Assembly: GCA_001442985.1 (NCBI GenBank)
Contig: LDYB01000014.1
Span: 186,001-250,000 of the forward strand
Reading direction: 5' to 3'
From: Armatimonadetes bacterium DC
Lineage (GTDB): Bacteria; Armatimonadota; Fimbriimonadia; Fimbriimonadales; GBS-DC
Length of the DNA stretch: 64,000 bases
Made by a program: the position numbers and the translations under genes. Under the pieces are notes generated by a model, which saw only the letters and a program-made list of their open reading frames with translations, had not been told where the DNA came from and did not search any database. Each line of letters starts with the position of its first letter. The first letter of the stretch is position 1. This document shows positions 1,146-33,247 of the stretch, in pieces.

Positions 1146-1230
1146 CGTTCCTAATGAACAAAGCCAGCCTCCGCTGGCTATATCAGCCGACGCAGGTCGG
1201 CTTCGTCTTATAGGAACGGCTTCAGCCGTC
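1134..1230 (+). repeat. Cloverleaf-type interspersed palindromic repeat, copy A
   Basis: This 97-bp element has outer arms GACGGCTAAAGCCGTTCCT and AGGAACGGCTTCAGCCGTC. Between them sit two hairpins, AGCCAGCctccGCTGGCT and AGCCGACgcaGGTCGGCT. Each outer arm is itself palindromic. Near-identical copies lie at 12151-12250 (inverted), 19481-19530 (right half only) and 33151-33247. It is non-coding: the peptide RLRLIGTASA that appears in several frames is a by-product of the repeat. Confidence 0.85.
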
Positions 1231-1952: not shown

Positions 1953-3662
1953 ATGGTTCTGCGTGTATTGGCATTTATTGGTGTCCGAACTCTGGTGAAC
2001 AGTTTTCGGCGCGCGTTTTCCAACCCTGTGCGGGCGGTGCTGACCACGCTGGTGATCCTGTTTATCCTGTGTGGCTGGGGAGGGGCGCTGTTAGGGAGCG
2101 TGCTGGGCAGTCCTTCTCGCAGTGCGCCCATGCCTCAAGGCGATCCGCAGACTCTGCTGGCGCGTGCGCTTGCCAGCACGCTGATAGTCCACTGGTTTTA
2201 TGTGGTCTCGCTATGGCTTTCGGCGCTGTTTCGCCCCGTCACGCTGTTGTTTCAGGAGAGCGATGTGCATTATCTGTTCACGACGCCGTTGCGAGCGCTC
2301 AGCGTATTTCGCGGGCTGTTGCTCATGCGGGGGCTGCTGGGAGCGGTCATGCTGTTCCTGATGATGGTGGCATATGTGTTATTGATGGGCGGGCGCACGA
2401 CGATGCGCGCGTTTGTGACTCTGGAGCCGGTGATAGGAGGCTGGGCGCTGCTGAGTTATCCGATACTCTATCTGCTGGCGTTTACGGGTTTGCTGATGGT
2501 GAGCGTGGTGCTGGCGCTTCGGGAGATTCAGGGGCGCTCGGCGCGTCGCTACTGGGTTTGGGGCGTGCTGGTCTGGGTAGGGCTGACTCTAATGCTGGTG
2601 GGCTGGCGGTTCTATGGAGAGTGGAGCGCGGGCAGTGGTTTCAGCGTTGCGATGAACCGTGCGGCAGACTGGACGCCTGCGGCGCTGTTGCTGTTTCCGG
2701 TGCGCTGTCTGGTGGATAGCGCGCTGGTGATTTACAACGGCTGGACGCCCGCGATGCTGGGGGGCGCACTCTTCTGGGGCGCGCTGGTGTGGTGGGGTAA
2801 TCGGGAGCTGGTGCGTCATCAGGGCTGGCTGTATGAGCTGGGCGCGGAGCTGGCGCGGCTGGGGGGCAAGGTGAGCCGTGCCCGTAAGGACCCGATGCGC
2901 GCCTACATGGAACGCGCCGCCGAACGCGCCCAGCAGAAGCCCCTGCGTACCCTGCGCTGGCTGGAACGCTGGACGCCTCAGGGCGTGTGGGCGCTCCTCT
3001 GGCGCGATTTGCTGATCACATGGCGCGCCAGCGGCTGGGTCAACCTGCTGGCAGTGGCGGTGCTGGCGCTGGCGCCCCTTGTGCTGATGTGGCTGGCGGC
3101 GCGCGACGGGGATGCAACCCCCAGAGCACTTCAGGTGATTTATCTGGCGATGCAGAGCGCGGTCGCCTTCTTCTACGCGTTTGGGAGCTACTACGGGATG
3201 ACAGAAATGCTCCGCCGTGTGGAGTGGCAGAAGCCGATGCCGTTTGTCAGCTGGCAGGTGGTGGTCGTGGAAGCCCTGCCAACAGTGGTGTTCTTCGCGC
3301 TGGGGCAGGTGTTGACGATTCTGGTTGCGACGCTCTGGTTCCCCAGTATGGCGGCGTTCTGGGTGGTGGGCAGCTTGATGGTGACCTCGTGGCTGGTGGT
3401 ACTGCAGATGGTGATGTTTATGGTGGCTCTCATCAACCCCGACCCCAGCGACTATACCCAGCGCCTGCTGGCGAGCTTCATCATGGTTCCGTTGCTTTGC
3501 CTCGGAGGCGGACCGGGCGTTCTGGTGGGCATTCTGGGGCTGGTCTATCAGTGGAACATGCTTCTGCTGGGGCTGGCGGTGCTGGTGGTGCAGACACTCC
3601 TTGCGATGGTGCTGACGGCGATTAATGCGACGCTTTATGAGCGGTTTAATCCTGTGGATTAG
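1953..3662 (+). CDS. Putative ABC exporter membrane protein, 569 aa
   Basis: This is a polytopic membrane protein with clusters of long hydrophobic helices in the N-terminal third (for example VLTTLVILFILCGWGGALLG) and again from about residue 370 to the end. The middle carries a charged linker (SRARKDPMRAYMERAAERAQ). The segment FQESDVHYLFTTPLRALSVF fits the family called putative ABC exporter, membrane parts thought to work with an ABC ATPase. No ATPase gene is adjacent, so its partner and substrate are unknown. The ATG at 1953 follows a TATACT box; the frame is open further upstream into repeat-like sequence. Its stop overlaps that of the convergent gpsA by 3 bases. Confidence 0.65.
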   Translation: MVLRVLAFIGVRTLVNSFRRAFSNPVRAVLTTLVILFILCGWGGALLGSVLGSPSRSAPMPQGDPQTLLARALASTLIVHWFYVVSLWLSALFRPVTLLFQESDVHYLFTTPLRALSVFRGLLLMRGLLGAVMLFLMMVAYVLLMGGRTTMRAFVTLEPVIGGWALLSYPILYLLAFTGLLMVSVVLALREIQGRSARRYWVWGVLVWVGLTLMLVGWRFYGEWSAGSGFSVAMNRAADWTPAALLLFPVRCLVDSALVIYNGWTPAMLGGALFWGALVWWGNRELVRHQGWLYELGAELARLGGKVSRARKDPMRAYMERAAERAQQKPLRTLRWLERWTPQGVWALLWRDLLITWRASGWVNLLAVAVLALAPLVLMWLAARDGDATPRALQVIYLAMQSAVAFFYAFGSYYGMTEMLRRVEWQKPMPFVSWQVVVVEALPTVVFFALGQVLTILVATLWFPSMAAFWVVGSLMVTSWLVVLQMVMFMVALINPDPSDYTQRLLASFIMVPLLCLGGGPGVLVGILGLVYQWNMLLLGLAVLVVQTLLAMVLTAINATLYERFNPVD

Positions 3663-4669
3663 GTTCTCACGAACCGAAACTCGCGCTCGCCTCTGGGGGG
3701 GCGCGTCATGAGGCTTTGGAGGGCATCCGAGACCGAGCGGGCGCCGTTGAGAATCTCCGCAATCGCGTTCAGCAGAGGGGTGTCAATCCCGTGCTGGTGC
3801 GCCAGCCTCTGCGCCACGAACGCGGTGAAGTAGCCTTCGGCGACTTGCCCCAGCTCCTGAAGCGCCTGCTGGGGCGTTTTGCCCTGCGCGACGGCATAGC
3901 CCAGCCGGTAGTTGCGGCTGAGTCGGCTGGCGGCGGTGGCAAACAGGTCGCCCACACCGGTCAGTCCCATAAAAGTTTCAGGGCATGCGCCCAGCGCGGC
4001 GCCGAGCCGCATCATCTCCGCCAGCCCGCGCGCCAGCAGCGCGCCTTTGGTGTTGTCGCCGAAGCCCAAGCCGTCGCTCATGCCCGCGCCAATCGCGTAC
4101 ACATTTTTGAGCGCGCCCCCCAGCTCCACGCCCACCACATCGTTGTTGGTGTAGACGCGCAGGGTGGGGGTCATAAACAGCTCCTGCACCGTCTCGGCGG
4201 TGGGGAGGTGGTAGGCGGCGGCGACGGTGGCGGTGGGCACGCCGCGCACCAGCTCCACCGCCAGATTCGGTCCCGAAAGCACCGCGATTTGCTCCGGCGT
4301 CCAGCGCCCCGTTTCCAGCACGACCTCGCTCATGCGTTTGCCCGTGTCGGGTTCCAGCCCTTTGGCGGCGATAATGCAGAGCGAGGCGCCATAGGGCAAC
4401 CGATTCAGCACGGAGCGCACCGCGCCCGACGGCACCGCCAGCACCCACGCCTCGCACGCTGTCAGCGCGTGGAGGTCGGCAGTCGGCGTCACGGTGTCGG
4501 GTAGCACGACTTCAGGCAGGTAGCGGCGGTTCACATGCTCACGCTGGAGCGCCTGAATGCGTTCGGGGTCGCGTCCCCAGAGCCACACCGGCACTCCCTT
4601 CTGACCCAGCAGATACGCCAGCGCCGTGCCCCACGAGCCTGCGCCGATGACGCCAATACATTCAGGCAT
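3659..4669 (-). CDS. gpsA: Glycerol-3-phosphate dehydrogenase [NAD(P)+]
   Basis: GpsA reduces dihydroxyacetone phosphate to sn-glycerol 3-phosphate, the backbone for phospholipids. The 336-residue length fits the family. The N-terminal Rossmann motif GAGSWG is at residues 9-14. Further hallmarks are SGPNLAVE, the catalytic-lysine segment GGALKNVYAIGAGMSDG and the C-terminal GARSVSDALQSLM. It is cytoplasmic and soluble. Its start overlaps the end of the small upstream gene by 8 bases, so the two are probably co-translated. A psd-like gene for the same lipid pathway is at 52657. Confidence 0.95.
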   Translation of the reverse strand: MPECIGVIGAGSWGTALAYLLGQKGVPVWLWGRDPERIQALQREHVNRRYLPEVVLPDTVTPTADLHALTACEAWVLAVPSGAVRSVLNRLPYGASLCIIAAKGLEPDTGKRMSEVVLETGRWTPEQIAVLSGPNLAVELVRGVPTATVAAAYHLPTAETVQELFMTPTLRVYTNNDVVGVELGGALKNVYAIGAGMSDGLGFGDNTKGALLARGLAEMMRLGAALGACPETFMGLTGVGDLFATAASRLSRNYRLGYAVAQGKTPQQALQELGQVAEGYFTAFVAQRLAHQHGIDTPLLNAIAEILNGARSVSDALQSLMTRPPRGEREFRFVRT

Positions 4670-4943
4670 GCTCTTCTGCCTCCTCTTGCGCCCAGTTCAA
4701 TGCCAGTTCCTGCAGCAGGGCAACCGCCTCCTCACGCTTGCGCAGGGGAACCCAGATAAAAATCGGCTGAGGGATGGAAGGGTACAGCGGCACCTGCGGC
4801 GCTTCGGGCGTGAAGGTCAGCACGCGATGGTCTATCAGATAGGTCTGCACCAGCTTCGCCGTGATGTCGTCGTAGGCGACCGCAACTGCGACCAGCTCTT
4901 CCGAAACTTTCTGCTCGTCTTCCGCGAGGATACGCCAGCTCAT
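4662..4943 (-). CDS. DUF2007-like small protein, 93 aa
   Basis: The soluble protein starts MSWRILAEDEQKV and contains VAVAYDDITAKLVQTYLIDHRV. This resembles the DUF2007 (putative signal-transducing) fold, in which a short ferredoxin-like unit reads 'who sits on which strand' of a longer partner. The C-terminus is acidic (AQEEAEEHA). The gene precedes and overlaps gpsA. A TATGCT -10 box ends only 6 bases before the ATG, so this mRNA may be leaderless. Function is unknown. Confidence 0.55.
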   Translation of the reverse strand: MSWRILAEDEQKVSEELVAVAVAYDDITAKLVQTYLIDHRVLTFTPEAPQVPLYPSIPQPIFIWVPLRKREEAVALLQELALNWAQEEAEEHA

Positions 4944-4949
4944 GCCATG

Positions 4950-4955
4950 AGCATA
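4950..4955 (-). promoter_or_regulatory. -10 box TATGCT for the DUF2007-gpsA unit
   Basis: GAGGTATGCT on the minus strand is followed by 6 bases and the ATG at 4943. Confidence 0.45.
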
Positions 4956-4993
4956 CCTCAGGAGGCAGGGAGCTTCGCCCCTGCCTCCGCAAG

Positions 4994-6175
4994 TTACGGC
5001 TGCACCGTGTGGCTGACGGTTTCGCGTAGCACGAACCCGCGCTTCAGGAACTCACGCACGAACACATGCCCCGACATGGATTGCTCGTAAGGGACAATCC
5101 CGCGGGGAACCGTGCCGTTGGCGACCCCAATCGCGATAATGGACGCCGAGAAGCCCGTGCAACGCTCCATCGCGGTGAAGCCCGTTTCGTCGTCGTGATA
5201 GTCAATATACTGCACGCTGATTTCGTAGGGCGCGCCGTTCTTCTCGCCGGACGCATAAACCCACACCACCACCAGGTCCTTCTCTTCGGGGAAGTCTATT
5301 TTAGGGGGGATCACCGTAGCGGTGAACTGGCGTGGGATGACGGGATGCCCCTCCACCTTGATGGGTTCCTCGTCAAAAAAGCCCAGGTCGCGCAGGGCGC
5401 GCATGATGTCCCAGTGTCCGGGGTAGCGGAGGGTTTTGTAGTCGTACTCCTGCACCTTGCCCGCGAGGGTGTAGGGCGCGGTGGAGGTGCCGCCTGAGGT
5501 GGGCGCGGCTTCCAGCAAGCCCAGTTCCTCAATTTCCAGATACTCAATATCTTCCAGAGTGGGCACATAGGTAGGCTTGCCTTCCCGCAGCACCAGCGCC
5601 TCGCCCGTATACTCCGAGATGACACCAATCATGTTGAACACCAGCTTGTAGCCGAGCGGACCCACCGGGCGTTGGGGCAGCCCCCCACAGCGCAGGCGAA
5701 TTTCGTGGCAGGTGTCCATCTTCTCCATACAGTAAAGCCCCAGATGGTTCACCATGCCGGGCGCGAGCCCGCAGTCGGGTACAAGAGCGATGCCGGCTTC
5801 TTTGGCTTCCTCGTCGCGCTTGCGAAATTCGTACCAGAACCATTCGGGGTCGTTGCCCATATCGATAAAGCTGCGCTTCGCGTCCAGCGCGAGCTGAATC
5901 AGGCGCATATTCATCTGCCACGGCACCGCGCTGATGACCACATCCGCCTCGCTGAAGTAGTCCAGCACCTGCTTTTCGTCGCGGGCGTCTACTCTTCGGG
6001 GGAACACGATTTGCTTTTGAAGCAGTTGATTGACCCACTCCGCTTTTTGTGTGGCGCGCTCCAGATCAATGTCGGCGAGATAAATCACCTCTGCATTTCC
6101 GAATCGCGCCAGGTCGTAGGCAACCGCAGGACCCTGCATTCCTGCGCCCAGAATGGCATATCGAAACGAACTCAT
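4994..6175 (-). CDS. Saccharopine-dehydrogenase-family oxidoreductase, 393 aa
   Basis: An N-terminal Rossmann fold is marked by YAILGAGMQGPAVAYDL (residues 5-21), and an acidic residue after strand 2 (YLADIDLERA) favours NAD. DCGLAPGMVNHLG and the C-terminal domain match saccharopine reductase / lysine 6-dehydrogenase relatives. Such enzymes act at the carbon-nitrogen bond of lysine derivatives, but the exact substrate cannot be told from sequence. The start is supported by AGGAGG about 9 bases upstream. The gene lies downstream of flagellin behind a strong hairpin, so it is probably a separate unit. Confidence 0.75.
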   Translation of the reverse strand: MSSFRYAILGAGMQGPAVAYDLARFGNAEVIYLADIDLERATQKAEWVNQLLQKQIVFPRRVDARDEKQVLDYFSEADVVISAVPWQMNMRLIQLALDAKRSFIDMGNDPEWFWYEFRKRDEEAKEAGIALVPDCGLAPGMVNHLGLYCMEKMDTCHEIRLRCGGLPQRPVGPLGYKLVFNMIGVISEYTGEALVLREGKPTYVPTLEDIEYLEIEELGLLEAAPTSGGTSTAPYTLAGKVQEYDYKTLRYPGHWDIMRALRDLGFFDEEPIKVEGHPVIPRQFTATVIPPKIDFPEEKDLVVVWVYASGEKNGAPYEISVQYIDYHDDETGFTAMERCTGFSASIIAIGVANGTVPRGIVPYEQSMSGHVFVREFLKRGFVLRETVSHTVQP

Positions 6176-12150: not shown

Positions 12151-12250
12151 AGATGGCTGAAGCCGTTCCTATAAGACGAAGCCGACCTGCGTCGGCTGAT
12201 TCAGCCAGCGCGGGCTGGCTTCGTTTTATCAGGAACGGGTTCACCCGTCT
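12151..12250 (-). repeat. Cloverleaf-type interspersed repeat, copy B (inverted)
   Basis: The 100-bp copy reads in the opposite orientation to copies A and D: the AGCCGACctgcGTCGGCT hairpin comes first and the AGCCAGCgcgGGCTGGCT hairpin second. The outer arms are slightly diverged (AGATGGCTGAAGCCGTTCCT against AGGAACGGGTTCACCCGTCT). It fills the sucC to 12322 divergent intergenic region. Confidence 0.85.
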
Positions 12251-12294
12251 GGATTCAAGCACGAAGTTGCTGGATGGTCTCCAAGAGATGGTGG

Positions 12295-12321: not shown

Positions 12322-13191
12322 ATGCACGGCTCAAACATCGCCTACCGACTCACGGAAGCGTTTGCGACAGGCACGCTGAAGCCTGCCGATCCGAACGCGC
12401 CACGCCCCGGCTGGGAGAGCCTGCCTGAAGTTCGGGCAGCCGAGAGGCTCTACAGCGCCGGGTTCTGCGACAGGGATGTACGGCTGTTTCTCACTTTTAC
12501 ATGTGCGATGGATCGGGTACGCGATGCGGAACAGCTCTGGCAAAAGTCAGCCGATGCAATCATTCGGTGTCCAGAGCTATTTCAGCCAGAATGGATTGTG
12601 GGGCACCCTACAGAGACGCGCCAGTTGCTGCAACGCCTCGGCATCAGCCAGCGGCATGGTCCCGACTCTTCAGCGTGGATTCGGATTGCCGAGTCGCTGA
12701 CGCACTCGAATCCTCAGACCCAGCCTGTGTATAATGCCATCCATAAAGGGACTGGCGAGGTTCGGCAACTGCTTCAATCGCTTCGGGCAAATGACAGGAG
12801 CAGGCGCCCCTATTTCCCTCTCCTGAAGGGTCCGAAAATCAGCGTGATGTGGGTTCGAATGCTCGTTGTGCCTGGACGCGCCTCCTTGCAGAACATCGCG
12901 GCACTCCCTGTGGCGGTGGACATCCATGTGAAACGAGTTAGCGAAAATCTGGAGGTCGTTTCGGCTCAAGGCAGCCAGATTGGCCCCTATGTCCGCCAGC
13001 GCATACAGCAGGCGTGGGCACAGGAAATCCAGCAGAGTGGGATCGTCGCCCCCGTAGGGCTGGAAGGCAGTGGAGGCGGACTGGATCCCGCGCTCTGGTA
13101 CTACGGTAAATGGGGCTGCGCCTTCTGCTACAAGCAGGCGCGCCGTATCCCAATTTCTGAGCTCTGTAATCAGTGCCGATTTTCGCCCTGA
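12322..13191 (+). CDS. Divergent HhH-GPD-like DNA glycosylase with Cys4 C-terminus, 289 aa
   Basis: I read this as a distant endonuclease III (Nth/MutY) relative. The segment FPLLKGPKISVMWVRML (K172) resembles the helix-hairpin-helix with its catalytic lysine. VAVDIHVKRVSENLEV resembles the VDTHVxRVxxRLG segment with the catalytic aspartate (D200). Four cysteines near the end (C266, C269, C282, C285; CX2C-X12-CX2C) could hold an Fe-S cluster or zinc, but the spacing differs from the classical C-X6-C-X2-C-X5-C of Nth. The family is seldom annotated beyond hypothetical. The start at 12322 (MHGSNIAYRL) is chosen by position after the -10 box; an in-frame start at 12274 lies upstream of that box. 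Confidence 0.55.
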   Translation: MHGSNIAYRLTEAFATGTLKPADPNAPRPGWESLPEVRAAERLYSAGFCDRDVRLFLTFTCAMDRVRDAEQLWQKSADAIIRCPELFQPEWIVGHPTETRQLLQRLGISQRHGPDSSAWIRIAESLTHSNPQTQPVYNAIHKGTGEVRQLLQSLRANDRSRRPYFPLLKGPKISVMWVRMLVVPGRASLQNIAALPVAVDIHVKRVSENLEVVSAQGSQIGPYVRQRIQQAWAQEIQQSGIVAPVGLEGSGGGLDPALWYYGKWGCAFCYKQARRIPISELCNQCRFSP

Positions 13192-14959: not shown

Positions 14960-14970
14960 AAAACTCACCT

Positions 14971-14986
14971 TGAGGATTGTACCTCA
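14971..14986. promoter_or_regulatory. Operator TGAGG-N6-CCTCA, copy 1
   Basis: The perfect inverted repeat TGAGG-ATTGTA-CCTCA covers the TACAAT box facing the relic antitoxin and abuts the -10 box of the Uma2 gene. It is conserved exactly in the second copy at 16097-16112, which fits autoregulation by the antitoxin. Confidence 0.6.
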
Positions 14987-14991
14987 TGCGG

Positions 14992-14997
14992 TATAAT
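14992..14997 (+). promoter_or_regulatory. -10 box TATAAT for the first Uma2 gene
   Basis: GCGGTATAAT lies 18 bases before the ATG at 15016. Confidence 0.5.
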
Positions 14998-15015
14998 CGT
15001 TTCGGGTGAGCGTAA

Positions 15016-15612
15016 ATGAGCCTTTCGGTACGGTCGCGCGGGGTTCCGATGAGCCGCGAGCAGTTCCTGCAACTGCCTGAAGGTCCCCCTTTTTACGACT
15101 ATGTGAACGGGGAGGCTATTGAGGTGAACCGACCCACTCTCAGACATCAGGAGATTCTGCTGGCGCTGGCGTCCCAGCTGCTTTTGCATACGCGCGCAAA
15201 ACAGCTTGGCAAAGTGGCGATTGAGGTGAATCTGGAACTGCCCAACGGCAACATTTACACACCCGATATCCTCTTTTATTCTCCCCAAACCGAGCCGCGT
15301 CTGGATTTGCAACGCGGCTATGTGCGGGGTGTGCCCGATTTGATTGTGGAGATTCTCTCTCCCTCCACCGCCGAGTACGACCGTACCCAGAAGATGAGCG
15401 ATTACGCCGCCTGCCAGGTGCCGTGGGTATGGCTGGTGGATCAGGACACGCTGGTGATCGAAGAGTATCAGTGGACGCCGGAGGGGTATCTGCGTCGTCA
15501 GGCGGTGAACGCCCAGACGCCGTTCACGCCTCACTTGTTTCTGGAGCTCACCCTCCAGATGGCACAACTGGTGCCTGCGGCTTCGGAAAGCGAGTCCCAG
15601 GAAGATTTTTGA
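15016..15612 (+). CDS. Uma2-family (DUF820) endonuclease-like protein, copy 1
   Basis: This 198-residue protein has the PD-(D/E)XK-like fold of Uma2 proteins. Likely active-site elements are PDI (D84), VEILSPST (E112) and YDRTQKMSDYA. The cellular role of the family is unclear; copies are abundant in cyanobacteria and thermophiles. The first about 38 residues and residues 101-186 are nearly identical to the copy at 16141, whereas residues 39-100 differ strongly, giving a mosaic pattern. No clear ribosome binding site is seen. The 5' flank carries the same operator and TATAAT box as copy 2. Confidence 0.9.
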   Translation: MSLSVRSRGVPMSREQFLQLPEGPPFYDYVNGEAIEVNRPTLRHQEILLALASQLLLHTRAKQLGKVAIEVNLELPNGNIYTPDILFYSPQTEPRLDLQRGYVRGVPDLIVEILSPSTAEYDRTQKMSDYAACQVPWVWLVDQDTLVIEEYQWTPEGYLRRQAVNAQTPFTPHLFLELTLQMAQLVPAASESESQEDF

Positions 15613-15622
15613 CCTATCTCAT

Positions 15623-15922
15623 TCAGAAAGCCCAAAAATCTGTTCCAGCGCTTGAAGCGCGACACGCACCACAGTCCACATAGCCTGCGCTGACCCACTC
15701 AGCCGCGCGGCGCCTCCATTCTGAACCGACCTCAACAATCTGGAAACTCGCTGGTAAATGCCTGTGGGGCATGATTCGTCCCCACTCTGCGTTCACTTCG
15801 GGGGTCAGGGCGATCCTGCCAAGATGCTCAAGCAATTGAATTTGTCCTATCTGAGAGAGGTGCAGAAGCGGACCCGTGTTGCAGACTATGAGTCGTGATT
15901 CTGACGCAGTTGCTGTGCCCAT
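15623..15922 (-). CDS. PIN-domain toxin-like protein, probably truncated, 99 aa
   Basis: The N-terminus LIVCNTGPLLHLSQIGQIQLL matches PIN-domain (DUF3368-type) toxins, RNases held in check by a partner antitoxin; the N in CNTGP occupies the usual first acidic position. PIN domains of this kind run to 130-160 residues and have a further acidic motif (GE..A..LA). Here the frame ends at 99 residues with an unusual tail (VDCGACRASSAGTDFWAF) at the junction with the Uma2 gene. The 3' end therefore appears lost and the toxin is likely inactive. It overlaps the antitoxin by 37 bases. Confidence 0.65.
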   Translation of the reverse strand: MGTATASESRLIVCNTGPLLHLSQIGQIQLLEHLGRIALTPEVNAEWGRIMPHRHLPASFQIVEVGSEWRRRAAEWVSAGYVDCGACRASSAGTDFWAF

Positions 15923-16092
15923 TGAATATCCTCCATCTGGAATCGCTCAGCAAGCTGGCGCGGGTGTCGGCGCAGGAACTCAAACAGGGCGGCACGCACC
16001 GCTTCCTCTTCGCTCTGGAACCACCCCTCCCGCACCCTCTCGTGCAACGGCTCTGCCAGACGGTCGGGCAACTCCACCTGAATAGTCTTCAT
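15886..16092 (-). CDS. Ribbon-helix-helix-type antitoxin, 68 aa
   Basis: MKTIQVELPDRLAEPLHERV, followed by QSEEEAVRAALFEFLRRH, has the strand-helix-helix pattern of ParD/CopG-like antitoxins: a DNA-binding N-terminus plus a toxin-binding tail. It overlaps the start of the PIN gene, the usual antitoxin-then-toxin order. A TACAAT box (16102-16107) lies 9 bases before its ATG inside the inverted repeat TGAGG-N6-CCTCA, fitting autorepression. A very long open frame that extends this one antisense through the Uma2 gene is a shadow. Confidence 0.75.
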   Translation of the reverse strand: MKTIQVELPDRLAEPLHERVREGWFQSEEEAVRAALFEFLRRHPRQLAERFQMEDIQWAQQLRQNHDS

Positions 16093-16096
16093 ATCT

Positions 16097-16112
16097 TGAG
16101 GATTGTACCTCA
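16097..16112. promoter_or_regulatory. Operator TGAGG-N6-CCTCA, copy 2, with antitoxin -10 box
   Basis: The 5-base arms flank TACAAT (minus strand, 16107-16102), the likely -10 box of the antitoxin gene. The divergent Uma2 -10 box TATAAT begins 6 bases further on, so one bound repressor could control both directions. Confidence 0.6.
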
Positions 16113-16117
16113 TGCGG

Positions 16118-16123
16118 TATAAT
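16118..16123 (+). promoter_or_regulatory. -10 box TATAAT for the second Uma2 gene
   Basis: GCGGTATAAT is followed 8 bases later by an in-frame GTG (16132) and 17 bases later by the ATG at 16141. Confidence 0.5.
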
Positions 16124-16140
16124 CGTTTCGGGTGAGCGTG

Positions 16141-16743
16141 ATGAGTCTTTCGGTACGGTCGCGCGGGGTTCCGATGAGCCGCGAGCAGTTCCTGCAACTG
16201 CCCGAAGGTCCCCCTTTTTACGACTATGTGAACGGGGAGGCTATTGAGGTGAATAAGCCCACAGTAAAGCACCAGTATCTGCTGATTCGGCTGGCGAGCC
16301 TGTTGATGAATTATGTGGAATCGCGCCAACTGGGTCTGGTGGTAGGCGACTGTAATCTGGAGCTGCCAAACGGCAATATTTACGCCCCCGATATTCTCTA
16401 CTTGAGCAAGGCGAATCTGCAGGCTTATGACCAGGCGCGCGGCTATGTACGGGGTGTGCCCGATTTGATTGTGGAGATTCTCTCTCCCTCCACCGCCGAG
16501 TACGACCGTACCCAGAAAATGAGCGATTACGCCGCCTGCCAGGTGCCGTGGGTATGGCTGGTGGATCAGGACACGCTGGTGATCGAAGAGTATCAGTGGA
16601 CGCCGGAGGGGTATCTGCGTCGTCAGGCGGTGAACGCCCAGACGCCGTTCACGCCTCACTTGTTTCTGGAGCTCACCCTCCAGATGGCACAACTGGTGCC
16701 CCCATCCCTACCCGAAGGCTCCAAAGCCGCGGAAGGGGTATAA
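16141..16743 (+). CDS. Uma2-family (DUF820) endonuclease-like protein, copy 2
   Basis: Paralogue of the gene at 15016, 200 residues from this ATG. Its ends are almost identical in DNA to copy 1 (two differences in about 112 bases at the 5' end; very few in the last 260 common bases) but the middle is diverged. PDI and VEILSPST are kept, so both look catalytically complete. An in-frame GTG at 16132, 8 bases after the -10 box, could serve as a leaderless start; copy 1 has a one-base difference that puts that GTG out of frame. The stop codon, in GGGGTATAA, forms part of the TATAAT box of miaB. Confidence 0.9.
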   Translation: MSLSVRSRGVPMSREQFLQLPEGPPFYDYVNGEAIEVNKPTVKHQYLLIRLASLLMNYVESRQLGLVVGDCNLELPNGNIYAPDILYLSKANLQAYDQARGYVRGVPDLIVEILSPSTAEYDRTQKMSDYAACQVPWVWLVDQDTLVIEEYQWTPEGYLRRQAVNAQTPFTPHLFLELTLQMAQLVPPSLPEGSKAAEGV

Positions 16744-19349: not shown

Positions 19350-19480
19350 CTCAATGCCCGGTGAGGGGGCAGGACGCGGGAACCGCGTCCGTACAGGCAA
19401 GCGTAGGGGTGCGGTCGCCGCGCCCCACGCGGCGAAATCCGCCGTCTCAGAAAGATGGAGCGCGCAGGATGCGCGGGCTA

Positions 19481-19530
19481 CTTCAGCCGACGCAGGTCGG
19501 CTTCGTTTGATAGGAACGGCTTCAGCCGTC
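19481..19530 (+). repeat. Cloverleaf-type interspersed repeat, copy C (right half)
   Basis: Only the AGCCGACgcaGGTCGGCT hairpin and the right outer arm AGGAACGGCTTCAGCCGTC remain. The left half is replaced by unrelated sequence. The surrounding 19350-19560 holds no gene that I can see. Confidence 0.8.
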
Positions 19531-33150: not shown

Positions 33151-33247
33151 GACGGCTGAAGCCGTTCCTAAGAAACAAAGCCAGCCTCCGCTGGCTTTAT
33201 CAGCCGACGCAGGTCGGCTTCGTCTCGTAGGAACGGCTTCAGCCGTC
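33151..33247 (+). repeat. Cloverleaf-type interspersed repeat, copy D
   Basis: Full 97-bp copy with the most perfect arms: GACGGCTGAAGCCGTTCCTA and TAGGAACGGCTTCAGCCGTC are exact 20-bp complements. It is nearly identical to copy A at 1134. The 50 bases beyond it (to about 33322) also resemble the flank of copy A. Confidence 0.88.

Follow-up and report, generated by a model that had tools for sequence, protein, structure and literature searches.

A likely AGOG/Qng1-related branch of HhH-GPD proteins, encoded in Armatimonadetes bacterium DC and patchily present in bacteria, haloarchaea and a halovirus

The window, by which we mean the whole stretch of 64,000 nucleotides that was analysed, carries on its plus strand a gene (12322..13191) that translates to 289 amino acids and a stop codon. 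We designate its product an AGOG/Qng1-like HhH-GPD protein. An ATG at 12274 is also in frame and would give a form of 305 amino acids, but the start at 12322 is plausible, since the match of the nearest relative spans residues 10-288 of the 289-residue form. The segment FPLLKGPK (residues 165-172; 12814..12837, plus strand), an HhH hairpin according to its motif, ends in the presumed catalytic K172. The presumed catalytic D200, identified by profile alignment, is found in VDIHVKRV (residues 199-206; 12916..12939, plus strand). The segment DPALW (residues 255-259; 13084..13098, plus strand) provides a D-x3-W motif which profile alignment places on the base pocket of AGOG, and a tail with four cysteines in the spacing CX2C-X12-CX2C (residues 266-285; 13117..13176, plus strand) has the appearance of a zinc ribbon. 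The cysteines of the protein are residues 49, 61, 83, 266, 269, 282 and 285. An earlier note on this DNA had pointed to LLKGPK (residues 167-172, with K172), to VDIHVKRV with D200 and to the spacing of the last four cysteines (Cys266/269/282/285), and the translated frame bears out all three.

The gene is flanked by a succinyl-CoA-synthetase-beta-like gene on the opposite strand and by an aldehyde dehydrogenase gene. With the exception of a Uma2 protein, a putative endonuclease, no repair or DNA-modification protein was detected among the ten neighbours scanned, and the promoter scan returned no sigma-70-like site. Directly upstream of the gene (window 12155-12245) there is a repeat of palindromic structure, about 90-100 bases long and with the core GAAGCCGACCTGCGTCGGCTGA, which folds much better than shuffled sequences (z -9.7); the palindromic repeat also occurs near window positions 1180-1204, 19480-19504 and 33197-33221. 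The core is present in 57 copies in the genome when up to one mismatch is allowed, versus 0 in the reversed control, and the copies form a REP- or MITE-like family that is dispersed over the genome. Upstream of the gene, matches to miRNA and CRISPR-repeat models of Rfam stayed under the gathering scores, were caused by the palindrome and were discarded. Further downstream, the first 80 residues of two minus-strand ORFs (14965-15567 and 15886-16692) are nearly the same, which is likely the result of a recent duplication. The former is antisense to the Uma2 gene, and a plus-strand ORF (16132-16743) lies opposite the latter.

Searched on its own, the window protein matched no model in Pfam, NCBIfam, PHROGs or PADLOC, and there was no match to PF00730, the HhH-GPD model of Pfam. 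Alcohol dehydrogenase matches (best E 0.32) were discarded. Five relatives could be collected, and in the comparison of all six members they are 20-46% identical to the window protein. The closest one is 47% identical, comes from an alphaproteobacterial MAG and was the one relative among 17 stretches obtained by an exact-peptide scan of a species-genome collection. A tblastn search yielded a protein from a plasmid of Halomicrobium urmianum (24% identical to the window protein), from which further tblastn searches reached a relative on a Halalkalicoccus plasmid and gp212 of the halovirus HGTV-1, which is annotated as endonuclease III and was matched in both HGTV-1 records. A profile search added a protein from a small genome of 0.9 Mb; in the class of the MAG, 2/385 genomes matched, this one and the MAG. 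Haloarchaea or a halovirus are thus the source of three of the five relatives. Two further candidates were rejected: L005 (E 7.8e-4), in whose frame no FPxLxGxK segment was seen, and L006, where an octapeptide had matched an unrelated phage ORF by chance.

The family was found in one of 61 genomes searched, namely the window's own. Within its phylum two of 291 genomes matched, the own genome and the rejected L005, so that 1/291 remains without the latter; within the MAG's phylum only the MAG itself matched (1/398). In viral contigs, the scans turned up no genuine relative. The family is thus rare and patchy in the genomes searched, which suggests horizontal spread. The observation is more than chance, given the 47% identical MAG protein and the invariance of K172 and D200 in the six members.

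The six proteins are homologous, and their alignment retains K172, D200 and W259 without exception, while D255 is kept in five of six and replaced by H in one. F165 and G170 are likewise kept in 6/6 members together with K172, so that every member has GxK followed by D at a distance of 27-28 residues. At position K+7, an arginine (R179) is found in five of six. K172 and D200 are likely the catalytic pair; D200 is placed by profile alignment, and K172 only by the GxK hairpin and its invariance.

The cysteine tail is restricted to two of the six members, the window protein and the MAG relative. Fpg/Nei proteins end in a zinc ribbon, and by its spacing and its place right after the pocket motif the tail may be a comparable element. 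The 4Fe-4S motif of Nth is C-X6-C-X2-C-X5-C. An Nth-like, Fe-S-binding reading of the cysteines was rejected, and an Fe-S cluster in the window protein is unlikely, because the tail does not have the Nth spacing and is missing in four of the six members.

The nearest known family was identified at the level of sequence profiles. The Pfam model AGOG (archaeal 8-oxoguanine DNA glycosylase; PF09171) is the best single-protein match of four of the six members (E 7e-4, 4e-4, 0.099 and 2e-4). Its gathering score of 26.1 bits is reached by no member (best 21.1 bits), and neither the window protein nor the MAG domain, searched singly, matches AGOG. In searches of the PDB with a family profile, the AGOG of Pyrobaculum (1xqo) came first, with E-values of 7.8e-4, 4e-5 and 6.3e-7 for profiles of four, five and six rows. 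The six-row search also returned two more AGOG proteins and human NTHL1 as weak matches (E at least 0.67), and unrelated chains were present as well (E at least 0.08). The TAL-effector matches of the L003 protein in the PDB consist of many short repeats, each below 3 bits in the three alignments shown, and were rejected.

In the profile alignment with Pyrobaculum AGOG (Pae-AGOG), D200 corresponds to D172, D255 to D218 and W259 to W222. In the excerpted text of PMC9638937, K140 and D172 of Pae-AGOG are described as essential, the exchange W222A abolishes activity, and D208 and W212 of the Pyrococcus enzyme (Pab-AGOG) hold the base. The alignment begins shortly ahead of D200 and ends shortly past W259, with K172 outside; in the sole local alignment that extends to the lysine (P0002), this residue is the first one aligned and faces K147 of Pae-AGOG, not K140. 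The N-terminal half lies outside the profile matches to AGOG, and the glutamine that reads N7-H of 8-oxoG (Q24 in Pab-AGOG) was not placed. The earlier note had suggested a profile search and a structure prediction as checks, and the former led to HhH-GPD kin, with the Pyrobaculum enzyme in first place.

The window protein and the MAG relative were modelled with AlphaFold, with no more than two sequences as input in each case. Mean pLDDT is 60.3 and 57.7, respectively, and residues 196-224 and 235-289 of the window-protein model are below 50. Both models are helical save for short strands. Among the VIA rows shown, 45 of 50 for the window protein and 34 of 46 for the MAG relative are HhH-GPD glycosylases or Qng1/DUF2419, to which two and one phage PUGT rows, respectively, are added. 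In both cases all rows above Z 3 belong to the HhH-GPD fold or PUGT, and the first unrelated rows appear at Z 2.6. Qng1/DUF2419 is first for the window protein (Z 7.9, rmsd 5.1 over 156), where it is tied with OGG1 (Z 7.7), and first for the MAG relative (Z 10.6, rmsd 3.2 over 147), where MUTYH follows with 8.1. AGOG reaches at best Z 5.8 and 6.8, respectively; most of the Z values are within the range that VIA calls uninformative for helical proteins (common arrangement). The fold reading was thus taken from the make-up of the VIA lists together with the sequence evidence. A comparison by Foldseek against the PDB gave no match at E <= 0.001 for either model. The list of the window protein is led by unrelated structures (estrogen receptor, E 1.8), with AGOG (1xqp) at rank 25 and a prob of 0.20; that of the MAG relative is led by DUF2419, which occupies ranks 1-9 (best E 0.044, prob 0.92). 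When the MAG-relative model was compared with a viral structure library, HGTV-1 gp212 was first (E 0.008, prob 1.00) and the next row had E 1.0. The structure search and tblastn thus independently pick the same protein. With mostly HhH-GPD-fold rows in VIA for two low-confidence models (pLDDT 60 and 58), the structure prediction agrees with the profile search, and an HhH-GPD fold is very likely. We consider it likely that the protein belongs to an AGOG/Qng1 branch, as a family without a name.

The surroundings of the relatives provide additional information. In the MAG, the family protein makes up the C-terminal portion of an ORF that also contains DUF7662 and DUF6884 (L002:4203-5855); the start of this fusion within the ORF 3414-5858 (L002) is ambiguous. 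The family gene on the Halomicrobium plasmid has a DUF6884 gene in tail-to-tail orientation at a distance of 192 bases. DUF6884 was present in two of the four other genomes or records (for the haloarchaea the plasmids only, HGTV-1 left out). It was not found, as a DpdC-type partner, in the window's own genome, in a search whose controls were positive in 5/14 cases. Excerpts of PMC11701544 describe DUF6884 as distantly related to the DNA-binding protein YaaA and as a predicted DNA binder, and B. subtilis YfjM was found there among binders of abasic and RNA-base lesions. The literature searched contained no mention of DUF7662 or of a bacterial homolog of AGOG glycosylase.

In HGTV-1, gp212 (L031:7692-8414) lies three genes from a Mom-family gene. 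Instead of the annotated endonuclease III, it looks like a member of the AGOG-like family. HGTV-1 has a second gene with the endonuclease III annotation, gene 294 (record 135168-135851). The family gene of Halalkalicoccus (L004:7803-8633) adjoins a DUF429 gene and a large Sacsin/NOV_C gene on its plasmid, and these surroundings are perhaps a mobile or defence region. A known defence system was considered and rejected for the five members other than gp212, which together gave no match in PADLOC and a single one in PHROGs (E 0.47). Of the glycosylases known from defence, Brig1 has a UDG fold and Brig3 an AAG-like fold, both different from that considered here (PMC11078745 and PMC13160076, both in excerpt).

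On balance, we favor the view that the window protein is an N-glycosylase of the HhH-GPD type, from a branch of its own next to AGOG and Qng1/DUF2419, and that it probably acts on a modified guanine as a Lys/Asp glycosylase-lyase. The base specificity is suggested by the D-x3-W pocket that AGOG, Qng1 and the new branch have in common, and excision of a modified guanine from DNA is the best single reading, although unproven. The substrate would be DNA and not a free nucleotide. A modified guanine would flip into a pocket whose lining is made up of W259 and D255, the equivalents of AGOG's D-x3-W; D200 would activate K172 as the nucleophile, which would attack C1' and release the base. A Schiff base would then form, from which the reaction could continue, as it does in AGOG, to cleavage of the strand by AP lyase activity. 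The Cys4 tail at the C-terminus, which only part of the family possesses, probably acts as a small clamp on nucleic acids and binds zinc.

Part of the evidence would also fit a Qng1-like nucleotide hydrolase that frees a 7-deazaguanine base from a nucleotide (e.g. queuosine-5'-phosphate) and does not act on DNA. Qng1/DUF2419 takes the first VIA row of both models and Foldseek ranks 1-9 of the MAG relative, and D298 and W302 are the active-site residues, again D-x3-W, of the Sphaerobacter DUF2419 protein (PMC11592518, in excerpt). However, none of the six members gave a Pfam Q_salvage match with an E-value limit of 10 (the HMMER filters drop most weak matches), and no DUF2419 chain appeared in the PDB profile searches, whereas AGOG was found. 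The Q_salvage search of the own genome also gave no match, a weak result, since none of the 14 controls was positive either. A free nucleotide as substrate is also at odds with the fusion of one member to DUF6884, a predicted DNA binder (PMC11701544, in excerpt), with the viral member three genes from Mom, and with the Cys4 tail, which suggests a polymer substrate. We thus regard the hydrolase as unlikely, if the most serious of the alternatives.

The preferred DNA glycosylase could also be a housekeeping enzyme for the repair of 8-oxoguanine, a bacterial AGOG whose specificity is the ordinary one, and AGOG as the nearest sequence family and the kept D-x3-W pocket would agree with this. However, a search of the own genome with PF00730 lists two places only, both other than the window gene. 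One is a classical Nth with C-X6-C-X2-C-X5-C, and the other looks OGG1-like by its sequence. As the genome already has these two genes, the window gene is probably accessory. Moreover, occurrence in one of the 291 phylum genomes (the own genome; L005 left out) is odd for a housekeeping function, and two AGOG base contacts appear changed. A housekeeping role is thus improbable. The AGOG enzymes named in the excerpts of the cited papers are archaeal, and Qng1 hydrolyses nucleotides.

A bolder proposal, for which the DUF6884 link of two relatives leaves room, is a glycosylase for deliberately modified guanine (e.g. 7-deazaguanine) in foreign or own DNA, which would use the AGOG/Qng1 pocket in a phage-host conflict, with DUF6884 (DpdC/YaaA-type) recognizing or processing the base or the abasic site and the virus version near Mom as the counterpart. 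DpdC of the 7-deazaguanine system carries DUF6884 according to excerpts of PMC11888242; in those of PMC12839542 it is assigned to DUF328 instead. The HGTV-1 gene table, which contains many hypothetical genes, names none for the synthesis of 7-deazaguanine; for this virus, the 7-deaza idea is thereby slightly weakened. We consider this proposal doubtful. Finally, a protein of the HhH-GPD fold that modifies bases or in some other way acts without excising them, as phage PUGT does, or one that binds DNA damage but is catalytically dead, is very improbable: PUGT structures occur among the VIA rows of both models (best Z 4.1 and 3.1), but the invariance of K172 and D200 in 6/6 members is unexpected for a dead binder.

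If the glycosylase reading applies, DUF6884, whose function is unsettled, gains a physical partner that is fused to it in one organism and adjoins it in another. The implied prediction is that the fusion binds or processes the abasic site, or the base, made by the glycosylase. The reading would also explain a viral gene that is now labelled endonuclease III.

Compared with known systems, OGG1 shares the HhH-GPD fold with the window-protein model (Z 7.7) but has no sequence match. Endonuclease III (Nth) is similar in the VD(T/I)HV segment around the catalytic aspartate (profile E 0.028) and in its fold rows (Z 5.8 for the window protein, 7.7 for the MAG relative); it differs in the K-D spacing, and the window protein has neither a PF00730 match nor the C-X6-C-X2-C-X5-C cluster. 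The comparison of K172 and D200 with endonuclease III in the earlier note thus survives as an HhH-GPD assignment with a likely catalytic pair, but not as a particular kinship with Nth (E 6e-7 for AGOG versus 0.028). The nearest family by sequence profile (E 6.3e-7) is AGOG (PF09171; 1XQO, 7OLB), with its catalytic aspartate, the lysine in the HhH hairpin and the D-x3-W base pocket. The catalytic and the pocket aspartate are 46 residues apart in Pae-AGOG, 45, 46 and 47 in three relatives, and 39, 52 and 55 in the other three members. The K-D spacing is 32 in AGOG (residue numbers of PMC9638937, in excerpt) versus 27-28 in the family. If K172 is aligned with K142 of Pab-AGOG, the position of F146 is M, L or Y in the family, and that of the base-contacting lysine K149 (K+7) is R or Y. 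Unlike AGOG, two members have the Cys4 tail, and the hosts are bacteria, haloarchaea and a halovirus. The queuosine salvage enzyme Qng1/DUF2419 (PF10343; 7U07) is the first structural row for both models and has the D-x3-W active-site pair, but no sequence-profile match to the family; DUF2419 itself had been modelled on a Pyrobaculum glycosylase (review PMC4425180, in excerpt). AGOG, Qng1 and the new branch seem to use one common pocket for a guanine-type base, and a third, patchily distributed D-x3-W branch would tie a DNA repair enzyme to a micronutrient-salvage enzyme via one ancestral modified-guanine pocket.
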